Assembly: GCF_014982975.1 (NCBI RefSeq)
Contig: NZ_JADCKL010000001.1
Location: forward strand, 186,001 to 250,000
Length of the DNA: 64,000 nucleotides
Source of the DNA: Claveliimonas monacensis
GTDB lineage: Bacteria; Bacillota; Clostridia; Lachnospirales; Lachnospiraceae
Reading direction: 5' to 3'
Below the pieces are notes generated by a model. That model was not told the DNA's origin. It saw nothing but the letters and a program-made list of their open reading frames with translations, and searched no databases. Position numbers and translations under genes: made by a program. Shown piece by piece: positions 39,701-45,633 of the stretch (positions within the stretch are counted from its first letter, which is position 1; every line of letters begins with the position of its first letter).

Positions 39701-39726
39701 CGTACATGCAGCCAAGGGCATGTACG
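39701..39726 (+). repeat. Leader hairpin upstream of the IscU-like gene
   Basis: CGTACATGC and GCATGTACG form a perfect 9-base stem with an 8-base loop (39710-39717). It stands just before the ribosome site AAAGGAG (39734-39740). It could stabilise the mRNA or bind a regulator. Confidence 0.55.
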
Positions 39727-39747
39727 CATATCGAAAGGAGTTTTAAA

Positions 39748-40440
39748 ATGATTTATTCACATGAAGTAGAAATGATGTGTCCGGTAGCTCAGGGTGCAAA
39801 TCACGGACCGGCTCCGATCCCGGAAGAAGCAAAATGGGTACAGGCTAAAGAGATCAAAGACATCTCCGGATTTACACACGGTGTGGGCTGGTGTGCGCCT
39901 CAGCAGGGAGCATGCAAGCTGACACTGAATGTAAAAGACGGTATCATCCAGGAGGCTCTTGTTGAGACACTGGGATGTTCCGGAATGACTCACTCCGCAG
40001 CTATGGCTTCCGAGATCCTGCCTGGAAAGACAATTCTTGAGGCACTGAACACAGACCTTGTCTGTGACGCTATCAACACAGCCATGAGAGAGCTCTTCCT
40101 CCAGATCGTTTACGGAAGAACACAGAGTGCGTTCTCTGAGAACGGCCTTGCTATCGGAGCAGGACTGGAAGACCTCGGAAAAGGACTCCGTTCACAGGTT
40201 GGAACTATGTATGGTACATTAGCCAAAGGTCCCCGTTACCTTGAGATGGCAGAGGGATATGTAACAGGTATCGCTCTTGACGAGAACGATGAGATCATCG
40301 GATACCAGTTCGTAAACCTTGGAAAACTGACAGACTTTATCAAAAACGGCGATACACCGAACGATGCCTGGGAGAAGGCAAAAGGCCAGTACGGACGTGT
40401 GGATGACGCTGTGAAGATCATCGATCCGCGCAAAGAGTAA
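39748..40440 (+). CDS. IscU/NifU-like iron-sulfur scaffold protein
   Basis: 230 residues from ATG at 39748, behind AAAGGAG. LVETLGCSGMTHSAAMASEILPGK fits the IscU/NifU-N fold; candidate cluster ligands are Cys49, Cys56 and Cys77, plus C11 outside the core. The C-terminal 100 residues are unlike IscU. Codon choice (CGT, ACA, CTT, GGA rather than CGG and CTG) is biased compared with neighbours, which suggests high expression. It is paired with the GGGtGRT gene 50 bases downstream, an arrangement I recall across Clostridia. The partner receiving the cluster is unknown. Confidence 0.8.
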   Translation: MIYSHEVEMMCPVAQGANHGPAPIPEEAKWVQAKEIKDISGFTHGVGWCAPQQGACKLTLNVKDGIIQEALVETLGCSGMTHSAAMASEILPGKTILEALNTDLVCDAINTAMRELFLQIVYGRTQSAFSENGLAIGAGLEDLGKGLRSQVGTMYGTLAKGPRYLEMAEGYVTGIALDENDEIIGYQFVNLGKLTDFIKNGDTPNDAWEKAKGQYGRVDDAVKIIDPRKE

Positions 40441-40489
40441 TAGCAGGTTGTCGCAGAGAATAAAGGTAATAATTCAGGAGGATACATAA

Positions 40490-41500
40490 ATGGCTTTATT
40501 TGAATCATATGAAAGAAGAATTGATAAAATCAATGAAGTATTAAACAGCTACGGCATTGCTTCACTGGAAGAAGCTGAGAAGATCACAAAAGATGCCGGA
40601 CTGGACGTATACAATCAGATCAAAGGTATTCAGCCGATCTGTTTCGAGAATGCATGCTGGGCTTACATCACAGGTGCAGCTATCGCCATCAAGAAGGGCT
40701 GTGAGACAGCAGCAGACGCCGCAGCAGCCATCGGAGAGGGCCTGCAGGCTTTCTGTATTCCGGGATCCGTTGCTGACCAGCGTAAAGTAGGTCTTGGACA
40801 TGGTAACCTTGGCAAGATGCTCCTTGAGGAGACAACAGACTGCTTCTGCTTCCTGGCTGGACATGAGTCCTTCGCAGCAGCAGAGGGTGCGATCGGTATC
40901 GCTGAGAAAGCAAACAAAGTGCGCAAGAAACCTCTCCGTGTTATCCTGAACGGACTTGGAAAAGACGCTGCAAAGATCATTTCCAGGATCAACGGTTTCA
41001 CATATGTACAGACAGAGTACGACTACTTCACAGGCGAGCTGAAAGAAGTACAGAGAATTGCTTACTCTGACGGACTTCGCTCCAAAGTAAACTGCTACGG
41101 TGCAAACGACGTGCGCGAGGGTGTTGCCATCATGTGGAAAGAGGGCGTTGACGTTTCCATCACAGGTAACTCCACAAACCCGACACGTTTCCAGCATCCG
41201 GTTGCAGGAACATACAAAAAAGAGTGCGTAGAGGCAGGAAAGAAATACTTCTCCGTTGCATCTGGCGGTGGTACAGGACGTACACTTCACCCGGACAACA
41301 TGGCTGCAGGACCGGCTTCCTACGGTATGACAGATACAATGGGACGTATGCATTCTGACGCTCAGTTTGCAGGATCCTCTTCCGTACCGGCTCACGTAGA
41401 GATGATGGGTCTGATCGGTGCAGGAAACAACCCGATGGTTGGTATGACTGTTGCAGTTGCCGTTTCTATTGAGGAAGCAAAGAAAGCCGGCAAATTCTAG
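40490..41500 (+). CDS. GGGtGRT family protein
   Basis: 336 residues preceded by CAGGAGG. The family takes its name from the motif SGGGTGRT, here at residues 258-265 (followed by LHPDNMAAGPASYGM). No function known to me. Visible traits: a Gly/Ala-rich, presumably cytoplasmic alpha/beta protein with several conserved Cys (FENACW, ETTDCFCF, VNCYGAND) and no signal peptide. Its codon use is strongly biased like that of the gene before it, so high expression is likely. A strong terminator at 41515-41556 ends the two-gene unit. Confidence 0.82.
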   Translation: MALFESYERRIDKINEVLNSYGIASLEEAEKITKDAGLDVYNQIKGIQPICFENACWAYITGAAIAIKKGCETAADAAAAIGEGLQAFCIPGSVADQRKVGLGHGNLGKMLLEETTDCFCFLAGHESFAAAEGAIGIAEKANKVRKKPLRVILNGLGKDAAKIISRINGFTYVQTEYDYFTGELKEVQRIAYSDGLRSKVNCYGANDVREGVAIMWKEGVDVSITGNSTNPTRFQHPVAGTYKKECVEAGKKYFSVASGGGTGRTLHPDNMAAGPASYGMTDTMGRMHSDAQFAGSSSVPAHVEMMGLIGAGNNPMVGMTVAVAVSIEEAKKAGKF

Positions 41501-43676: not shown

Positions 43677-44690
43677 ATGAGAGAAAAAAATTACAATCTG
43701 GAACTGATACGTATGGTATCCTTTGTCCTGGTGATCGCCATACATGTGAGCAATTATTTTTGCCGCGGCTACGGGGAGATCCCTGAAAGGGAATATCTTT
43801 TTTCTCTTGTGGTGGATACCGCTGCGAGAGTGAGCGTGCCCTGCTTTTTTATGATCACCGGGGCGCTTCTCATGGGGAGGGATGAGCCCCTTGAAAAGCA
43901 TGTGAAGAGACTTCTCAGATTTTTTACCGTACTTGTGGTGTGGAGCCTTGTCTACTATCTGTGGAATACCTTTTACATGAAATCGGAGTTTGATCTGCGG
44001 ACCATTCTCTATGAGCCTGTGGAAGCACACCTGTGGTATCTGTATGCCATGATACCCATCTATCTTGTTCTGCCATTTCTGCAGGTGATGTGCAGGAACT
44101 TCAGCGAGAAGCTGGAGAAGGCTTTTTTTGTGGTGACAACAGGAACGGTGCTCGCCAATTATCTCCTGTGGCTGATGCATGGCGAATTTTACTACGATCC
44201 GCCTCTGATAGGGGACAGGGTCTATGTCTACTATCTGTACGCGGGATACTATCTCTATAAATACAAGGACCGTATCCGCCTCAGCCAGCCGGCGGCAATG
44301 GGGATCTGTCTGGCAAGTCTTGGGGCGGCCTTTGGCATTACGCTGGGGGCAACAGTAGCCCAGGCGGACCATTATGAGGGCGCACTGACCTACGGCATGC
44401 CTCTGATCGTGCTCGCGTCTGCCATGTTCTTCCTGTTTATGCTGCGGCTTGGAAGGGGAAAGATCCGGTTAGGGGAGAGGACAAAAAAGGTGATAGATCT
44501 TTTCTGCGGGTGCTCTTTTGGTATCTACCTGATCCACATCCTCTTTCTGGACAATTACAAAAAGCATATGGAACCTTATGATCTGTCTGCCTGGATCGCA
44601 GTGCCATCGCTTGTGGCGGGGATCGCCGCTGTTTCCTTTCTGTGTGTCTGGCTGATGAGGAAGACCAGGATCGGAAGGAAGATTACCTGA
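43677..44690 (+). CDS. Acyltransferase family 3 membrane protein
   Basis: 337 residues from ATG at 43677 (AAAGGGA upstream), about ten membrane helices. The start NYNLELIRMVSFVLVIAIHVSNYF fits the acyltransferase-3 (OafA/WecH) family, with the conserved N-terminal Arg and His in RM...H of the first helices, and PCFFMITGALLM in the next. It probably O-acetylates a cell-surface polymer or lipid; substrate unknown. It stands apart from capsule genes. No strong terminator was recognised between ispH and this gene. Confidence 0.85.
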   Translation: MREKNYNLELIRMVSFVLVIAIHVSNYFCRGYGEIPEREYLFSLVVDTAARVSVPCFFMITGALLMGRDEPLEKHVKRLLRFFTVLVVWSLVYYLWNTFYMKSEFDLRTILYEPVEAHLWYLYAMIPIYLVLPFLQVMCRNFSEKLEKAFFVVTTGTVLANYLLWLMHGEFYYDPPLIGDRVYVYYLYAGYYLYKYKDRIRLSQPAAMGICLASLGAAFGITLGATVAQADHYEGALTYGMPLIVLASAMFFLFMLRLGRGKIRLGERTKKVIDLFCGCSFGIYLIHILFLDNYKKHMEPYDLSAWIAVPSLVAGIAAVSFLCVWLMRKTRIGRKIT

Positions 44691-44719
44691 TCTGCCGGCA
44701 CGGTTTACCGCGTCGTTGA

Positions 44720-44748
44720 TTGACAAGGACCGTCAGTCTTACTACAAT
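44720..44748 (+). promoter_or_regulatory. Strong promoter of the candidate selenoprotein gene
   Basis: TTGACA (44720-44725), exactly 17 bases, then TACAAT (44743-44748). This is among the best promoter matches in the window; the start codon is at 44786. Confidence 0.75.
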
Positions 44749-44785
44749 AAAAGCAGCAGAAATGAGAAAGGGGGCAGGTGACCGG

Positions 44786-45085
44786 ATGATACAATTAAAC
44801 GAACAGGCCAAAGAATATATGGCAAAACTGGGGTGGAGTGATCTGGTGCTGAGTGTAGAGGAATACACCAGCTGATGTGCGCCTCCGTACAAGGAGATCG
44901 TGGTAAGTTTTACCCGAGAGGATAAGGGAGCCATGGAAGCAAAGGGCTATGTGGCAGGAAAGAGCGAGGTGGGATACGTGTATTACCCAGCGGAAGGGGT
45001 GAAGACTTCGGAGGAAATAGCTGTGAATTATATAGAATATCCTTGGCTTACCAGATTTGAAGTGGAAGGGATCGAGCCGTCGTAG
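44786..45085 (+). CDS. Candidate selenoprotein with in-frame TGA (Sec-Cys pair)
   Basis: Reading from ATG at 44786 (AGGTG upstream) gives 29 codons, then TGA at 44873-44875, then TGT (Cys) and 68 more codons in the same frame to TAG at 45083-45085. Both sides read as one coherent small protein: start MIQLNEQAKEYMAKLGW, then EEYTS-U-CAPPYKE, end FEVEGIEPS. A short CTCC/GGAG hairpin with loop GTACAA lies at 44883-44896, a possible SECIS. In my recollection a family of small Clostridial proteins has a CC or Sec-Cys pair at such a site. The alternative is a nonsense mutation. No SelA/SelB/SelD gene is in the window. Confidence 0.6.
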
Positions 45086-45117
45086 AGCCGGCGGCAGGTG
45101 AAGGAGGGGGATGCTTT

Positions 45118-45633
45118 ATGGACAGCCGGACTGTAATGGAGCTTGTGCTGGTCGCAGTACTTGCGGTTTTGGGCATTGCCATGACCGTCTGTGAGAGCAG
45201 GAGGGTGGCAGAGCCGACAACCGTGCAGACTACGCCTTACCGCTCTGTCCTGATCAGCGGGATGACAGCCGCTCTCGCAGCAACCGTGTTATTCGTGGCC
45301 GCACTGTGGGAGCATGCAGGGATGTACAGCATTCTGGCGGCCGGAGCAGCTAGAAAAAACTCTGTGCAGATGAAAGACAATGGATCTGCACAGAGTTTTT
45401 TTCTGTCACGTGGAGACGATGGTAAAATAGTATTTCCGGTCTCCCACAGTGACCCGGAAAACGGTGTCATCTTCTCTCTGAACGGATACATCCCCGGAGC
45501 TGATACAGAAGAGCCAGAGAGTGTCAATGTCGGCGTCGTGGCGCCTGGTGGAGCCCGCGTCCCACTGGACCAGATAGTCGTCCACAGGCAGCCGTGTCAG
45601 CAGGCCGTCCCTGGCAAATACAGTGGGGTTTAA
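45118..45633 (+). CDS. Small membrane protein; 3' part overlaps a terminator and an antisense gene
   Basis: ATG at 45118 has an excellent AAGGAGGGGG upstream. The first 75 or so residues form two membrane helices (TVMELVLVAVLAVLGIAMTV and SGMTAALAATVLFVAALW) and look real. No family recognised. The frame then runs through a strong terminator (45354-45402) and lies antisense to the gene at 45406-45705, so the C-terminal part is probably not protein in nature. A one-base shift near 45348 would give a stop (TAG at 45351-45353). It starts 32 bases after the candidate selenoprotein gene. Confidence 0.4.
   Translation: MDSRTVMELVLVAVLAVLGIAMTVCESRRVAEPTTVQTTPYRSVLISGMTAALAATVLFVAALWEHAGMYSILAAGAARKNSVQMKDNGSAQSFFLSRGDDGKIVFPVSHSDPENGVIFSLNGYIPGADTEEPESVNVGVVAPGGARVPLDQIVVHRQPCQQAVPGKYSGV
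45354..45402. terminator. Strong bidirectional terminator
   Basis: AAAAAACTCTGTGCAGAT pairs with ATCTGCACAGAGTTTTTT. The flanks supply T runs for both strands. It sits inside the plus-strand frame 45118-45633. Confidence 0.85.

Follow-up and report, generated by a model that had tools for sequence, protein, structure and literature searches.

A probable selenoprotein with an adjacent Sec-Cys pair in Claveliimonas monacensis, and its distant kinship to the CC/Se motif family

The window, that is the whole stretch of 64,000 nucleotides of Claveliimonas monacensis DNA that was analysed, contains a short gene with a single in-frame TGA (Table 1). Its reading frame opens with the ATG at 44786 and runs over 29 codons to the TGA, which is followed by TGT and by 68 more codons up to the TAG at 45083-45085. 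The first-pass annotation had proposed this layout, and on re-reading the positions it gave for ATG, TGA, TGT and TAG matched base for base. The other elements it had described were recovered as well: the promoter-like sequence TTGACA-17-TACAAT, which a consensus scan returned as the sole site of its kind within 44600-45500 (shuffled sequences average 0.4), a plausible ribosome site, AGGTGA, that by eye ends 4 bases upstream of the ATG, and a small CTCC-GTACAA-GGAG hairpin 7 bases past the TGA. After the gene there is an ORF with hydrophobic stretches (45118-45402), which remains stop-free into an inverted repeat; this repeat and the T that follow it (45360-45402) were seen by eye and are absent from the list of the scan.

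Table 1. Coordinates of the candidate selenoprotein gene and its local features (window numbering), and of the Sec machinery and a second small gene with an in-frame TGA elsewhere in the same genome (contig numbering)
Feature	Position	Strand	Remark
Candidate selenoprotein gene, subgroup A (TSUCAPP)	44786..45085	+	99 residues counting Sec at 30; stop TAG
TGA codon, read as Sec30	44873..44875	+	one TGA in each of 27 distinct matches
TGT codon, Cys31, putative partner of Sec30	44876..44878	+	Cys at +1 in 16/16 subgroup A rows
Promoter-like site TTGACA-17-TACAAT	44720..44748	+	consensus match only, 11/12 bases
Hairpin 1, CTCC/GGAG	44883..44896	+	invariant in 16/16 subgroup A rows; may be part of or adjoin the SECIS
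Hairpin 2, main SECIS candidate	44898..44917	+	triloop GUU 44907-44909, bulged U 44901; fold and covariation
selA	C12:329408-330772
selB	C12:327495-329378
selD	C12:330929-331849		one TGA of its own
tRNA-Sec	C12:321352-321445		64.3 bits against 47
Second small candidate selenoprotein gene (L137), subgroup B (CSTUGG)	C32:167040-167336		one in-frame TGA

Homologues were collected by a profile search within the genus, a single-protein search within the family and, beyond the family, a pattern search of genome contigs only. A homologue spanning the TGA is found in 13 of the 299 same-family genomes when the own genome is included (12 of the 298 others), and the profile search detected the gene in 10 of the 11 genomes of the genus. 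Combined, the family and genus searches yielded 27 distinct matches in 21 genomes, with identities to the window protein ranging from 87% down to 24%. Every one of these matches has exactly one internal stop in frame, always TGA and never TAA or TAG, and in all 17 loci of a first set it lies at codon 27, 30 or 31 of the respective reading frame. For 23 of the 27 matches the TGA position was read (13 + 10; the remaining four, one of them a partial match, all came from the genus search), and Cys was present there in none. Likewise, the family and genus searches returned no Cys form of the close family, which comprises the subgroups A and B described below. The expectation that homologues would have Cys or TGA at this column was thus borne out for TGA (23/23 read). 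Four named loci with a homologue, from Eubacterium sp. ER2, Lachnoclostridium sp. An118, Claveliimonas bilis and a Lachnospiraceae assembly, are not independent observations because each of the four proteins is identical to one from a genome of the same genus. The homologue of Claveliimonas bilis, in strain c-25, is 69% identical. Plasmids and phages gave no match and the viral contigs searched gave no confirmed one. The window family does occur in other Lachnospiraceae, also of other genera, and most of these bacteria have selenocysteine machinery.

That the TGA is a sequencing error, or is read through as some other residue such as Trp, is most improbable, and nothing was found in favour of either. 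An error is very unlikely given that the TGA recurs across 21 genomes, and a different residue is at odds with the Cys that distant relatives mostly have at this place, with a gene presence that tracks selA and with the covariation of the downstream hairpin (see below). The alternative of a true stop, in which translation would give a 29-residue peptide and the second half would have a start of its own or be decaying, has in its favour that TGA normally is a stop in these bacteria. However, the pattern of change after the TGA resembles that before it: over 12 rows the values for changes at codon positions 1/2/3 are 0.33/0.26/0.59 before it and 0.28/0.22/0.51 after it, where codon-position counts were used in place of dN/dS because saturated pairs give no finite value. 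The dominance of third-position changes on both sides indicates that selection at the protein level continues past the TGA, in agreement with the earlier observation that the codons beyond it look protein-like. Moreover, codons 31-60 contain no conserved restart codon, and two of 16 rows have no start codon there at all; the internal stop is a single TGA throughout the 27 matches; and TGA-free relatives from the family NF041239, introduced below, run through the same place. The in-frame UGA is, in other words, conserved and situated in a protein that stays under selection to either side of it, and a true stop is very improbable.

The own genome has selA, selB, selC and selD, for which the first-pass annotation had suggested looking; selD, selA, selB and tRNA-Sec are all situated on one contig (C12), between 321352 and 331849. 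The distribution of the gene follows that of the machinery. Taking the gene and selA counts as covering the same 299 family genomes, selA is over cut-off in 45, namely in 11 of the 13 with a window-family gene and in 34 of the 286 without (Fisher P 1.8e-8, with kinship not corrected for). Within the genus the same 10 of the 11 genomes have both the gene and selA, and both are absent from the remaining one (G300, 90% complete), in which tRNA-Sec over cut-off was also not found. Among the carriers of the gene, G231 (82% complete) gave no selA, selB, selD or tRNA-Sec over cut-off. The genome G104 (96% complete) speaks for a true stop to the extent that it keeps a TGA gene of subgroup B and gave no selA, selB or selD over cut-off. 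It does have a tRNA-Sec of 67.9 bits, which suggests either that the lineage still has the Sec system or lost it recently, or that the assembly has a gap.

The model of the bacterial SECIS element described in section 5 of PMC13188914 specifies a loop of 3-9 nt, a stem of 4-16 bp, a spacing of 16-37 nt, a G in the first two loop positions and an MFE of at most -7.5 kcal/mol. The small hairpin that the first-pass annotation had noticed (hairpin 1) is conserved in subgroup A (16/16 rows), but its loop lies 11 nt past the TGA, closer than the 16-37 nt that the model allows. Hairpin 2 starts 22 nt past the UGA and has a GUU loop, G first, at 31 nt, so that it fits the model in loop, stem, G and spacing. 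Folded alone it reaches -6.4 kcal/mol, short of the -7.5 required by the model; a 54-nt stretch folds at -12.6 kcal/mol, with a z of no more than -1.33, and when 79 nt are folded hairpin 2 gives way to a different structure.

In an alignment of 15 rows from both subgroups (L011 left out), 7 of 12 pairs have changed on both sides, a count that 5 of 500 shuffles matched, and the covariation score was reached by none of the 500 shuffles and by no slid version. Within subgroup A (16 rows) both partners have changed in 4 pairs of hairpin 2, which 11 of 500 shuffles equalled, with a covariation score that again none of 500 shuffles reached. Kinship alone can lift rows above shuffles without any structure; the slid controls retain this kinship and stay well below. 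Standard pair types are no more numerous than in the shuffles (186/500 for the 15 rows, 375/500 for the 16). In the lower part of hairpin 2, pair 28-44 is open in 6 of the 16 subgroup A rows and pairs 27-45 and 29-43 in 4 each; the window row itself is open at 28-44 and 29-43 in the structure that was counted, and its own fold closes there via a bulged U. Synonymous codon identity amounts to 0.83 in hairpin 1 and 0.70 in hairpin 2, compared with 0.49 upstream of them and 0.50 downstream (for this measure, as for the counts of Cys near Sec below, L028, L126, L128, L129 and L133 were left out as copies). Judged from fold and covariation, hairpin 2 is the main candidate for the SECIS, and a better one than hairpin 1.

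We estimate at roughly 94% the probability that the UGA at codon 30 encodes Sec, which would make the window gene a bacterial selenoprotein. Several observations speak for the Sec30-Cys31 pair as originally proposed: each homologue found has the TGA, selection continues past it, the Sec machinery of the genome is complete, the gene co-occurs with selA, and the downstream hairpin covaries. By established bacterial Sec biology, SelB would bind the downstream hairpin and bring Sec-tRNA to the UGA.

The homologues divide into two subgroups: A, which includes the window gene and has the motif TSUCAPP, and B, with the motif CxTUGG (CNTUGG, CSTUGG and the like). The own genome (G000) carries one gene of each, and the hairpin sequence of its subgroup B gene is similar to that of the window gene. 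The window protein has no match to NCBIfam or Pfam up to E 10, and thus none, even at that value, to NF041239, the CC/Se motif family with a curated cut-off of 40 bits. Three of the four subgroup B rows in a 16-row alignment do match NF041239, at 26.4, 25.2 and 13.0 bits and hence below this cut-off; the fourth and two later-added B rows (L136 and L137) gave no match. Of 398 genomes searched in the phylum, 89 have a match to NF041239 itself, 85 of them over cut-off; the family was represented in what follows by 50 matches, consisting of the 30 best (29 with TGA) and 20 picked because no internal stop was reported for them. In profile comparisons by hhalign, with X at every Sec, these rows aligned to subgroup A at 94.5% (E 7.5e-8), to subgroup B at 97.0% and to both together at 97.1%, and A aligned to B at 98.9%, where E-values are those for one pairwise comparison. 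The combined subgroups gave no hit against 20 column-shuffled versions and one reversed version. A tree of 72 rows separates A and B from NF041239 at 100/99 support and by a long branch, with few columns and many long branches overall. By profile comparison, then, the window protein is a distant relative of NF041239. The earlier suggestion of a Clostridial CC/Sec family stands as regards this kinship; the scores do not place the protein inside the family.

Two further observations concern NF041239 itself. In G699 two of its matches (C13:31701-31967 and C13:28056-28307) have an internal TAA or TAG and no TGA, and are perhaps decayed copies. The NF041239-like loci L065 and L070 have Ala (GTAGG) where others have Sec or Cys, and the same genomes carry a TGA copy.

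Beyond NF041239 the relationships extend to HesB-like proteins. A set of 17 HesB-like rows, out of 20 loci fetched (L118, L120 and L121 were left out), was found with the model TIGR01911, all below its curated cut-off (0/149 genomes over). The NF041239 rows align with this set over 89 columns at a probability of 96%, and the A, B and NF041239 rows jointly do so as well. Subgroup A alone gave no alignment to the HesB-like rows, and subgroup B alone gave one of 33% with C at the Sec position and none with X. TIGR01911 has no match in the own genome, and the HesB/IscA-like family models of Pfam and NCBIfam have none among the 16 alignment rows. The link to the HesB/IscA superfamily is therefore indirect, as it is held only through the NF041239 rows, and the window family would be related to HesB-like proteins in this indirect sense. 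The C-terminal Cys residues of HesB/IscA-like proteins are Fe-S ligands. The window protein has no Cys after Cys31 and hence none at its C terminus; in several relatives a single Cys stands close to the C-terminal end. Among other candidates, a solved-structure match to DUF4465 (the best of 10 chains up to E 10; E 2e-5 for the whole chain) was discarded, being built from several weak stretches of which none was better than an i-Evalue of 0.18. A Pfam search over the 16 rows returned three families with one row each (best DM9, 0.0012), which were judged to be chance.

Exactly one Cys lies within 5 residues of Sec in 50 of the 51 Sec rows (16 A, 6 B and 29 NF041239), at offset +1 in all A rows and at -3 in all B rows. 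Among the NF041239 rows the offsets -3, +1, +3 and +4 occur in 15, 5, 7 and 1 rows, and one row has no such Cys. The register between the subgroups depends on which side is considered: counted from downstream, Cys31 of A falls where B and NF041239 have their Sec, whereas counted from upstream the Sec of A coincides with that of B. In the MAFFT alignment Sec stands one column earlier in the 16 A rows than in the 35 others. Where B and NF041239 have Sec, 19 of the 21 TGA-free NF041239 rows have Cys and the other 2 have Ala; where the window protein has its own Sec, Cys is found in 15 or 17 of them, according to the alignment used (two alignments). Cys thus appears as the usual residue of TGA-free relatives at either column, with an alignment that is uncertain by one residue. 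A tentative and rather unlikely reading is that the window family forms a selenoprotein branch of the HesB-like superfamily in which the UGA has slid by one codon while the SECIS hairpin remained fixed. One Sec and one nearby Cys would then have been kept as their geometry moved (Cys at -3, +1, +3 or +4), and in the TSUCAPP branch Sec, one residue earlier by the downstream spacing, would sit at the first Cys of the Cys-Cys pair of most Cys-type relatives.

With regard to function, a weaker proposal is that the product would be a small protein of the HesB-like superfamily in which Sec30 and Cys31 may form a reversible Se-S bond. A redox role is suggested because the single Cys near Sec is kept across the superfamily despite its changing spacing, and selenol/thiol redox chemistry of the pair is the function we prefer, at about even odds. 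With the odds somewhat against it, Sec may be real and the pair may instead bind a soft metal or metalloid (Hg, As, Cu) or an Fe-S cluster, with no redox turnover. HesB/IscA relatives are Fe-S carriers, and the alignment of the superfamily with the HesB-like rows fits such a binding role. However, the C-terminal Cys that is present in 16 of the 17 HesB-like rows is absent from the window protein. A further point for binding is a NifU-like gene (20.9 bits, just under the Pfam cut-off of 22), which at 39706-41500 of the window adjoins a GGGtGRT gene and lies about 4.3 kb upstream. At L028 and L081, which are close relatives of each other in the genus, its homologue is no more than 2 kb away; yet such a neighbour is found in only 3 of 17 loci, on the other strand in two of the three. 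In L028 and L081 the NifU-like homologue stands beside a 336-residue ORF, equal in length to the GGGtGRT protein.

The wider context is sparse. Neighbouring ORFs were clustered at 17 loci (the window, 12 loci from other genomes and the four named ones; two are clipped by contig ends). In subgroup A the neighbours common to at least three loci are limited to the same genus, except for cluster 0, an antisense ORF over the gene itself; outside the genus only single neighbour families are common to L082 and L087 and to L029 and L085, at different distances. Consequently, the context provides no operon-based function. More is shared in subgroup B: three upstream families recur in identical order at L089 and L090, two downstream families are common to L089 and L091 and one family to L091 and L092, these four loci being from different genera; L091 also has one neighbour family in common with the subgroup A locus L029. 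By eye the neighbours at L089 look like housekeeping DNA-repair genes, and we take the sharing as common ancestry and not as function.

NF041239 is among the closest known systems. This CC/Se motif family (seleno)protein (Moor_selen_rel) is listed in Table 1 of PMC13188914 as hypothetical, predicted in Moorella thermoacetica and with the motif CxxU. Its members have about the same length as the window protein and align to it by profile over the full length, and they place Sec or Cys-Cys in the corresponding loop. Of the 29 TGA rows, 28 have a single Cys close to Sec, and by eye there is a palindromic stretch past the TGA. In contrast, the window protein itself scores no match to the model, the best subgroup B row stays well under its cut-off, and the window family is set apart by its separate branch, its TSUCAPP motif and another hairpin sequence. 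The HesB-like selenoprotein of TIGR01911 resembles both families in the joint alignments and in its Sec, which lies in an early glycine-rich loop in 15 of the 17 HesB-like rows, and differs in that the window subgroup alone does not align to it and lacks the C-terminal Cys. The CU-motif selenoproteins SaoC, SaoL, MbdU and KCU-star (PMC13188914, Table 1) also have adjacent Cys and Sec, whereas the order in the window protein is Sec-Cys and it has no NCBIfam match to any of them.

The catalogue of 119 families and subfamilies in section 7 of PMC13188914 counts differing Sec positions or motifs as separate subfamilies. Among the open-licence papers listed there is no report of the window family, and we rate it as a new subfamily, outside the NCBIfam and Pfam models that were searched. 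In general, automatic annotation readily overlooks selenoprotein genes, since it treats their UGA as a stop. The window family is kept in 10 of the 11 genomes of its genus and in other genera of the family, yet stands outside the curated models. It would broaden the CC/Se superfamily, and some of these bacteria would spend selenium on two such small proteins. The natural series UC, CxxU, UxxC and CC may offer a way to ask what the neighbouring Cys does for Sec and, if the UGA has indeed slid by one codon, the window family would show that Sec and its partner can swap places within the pair in nature.
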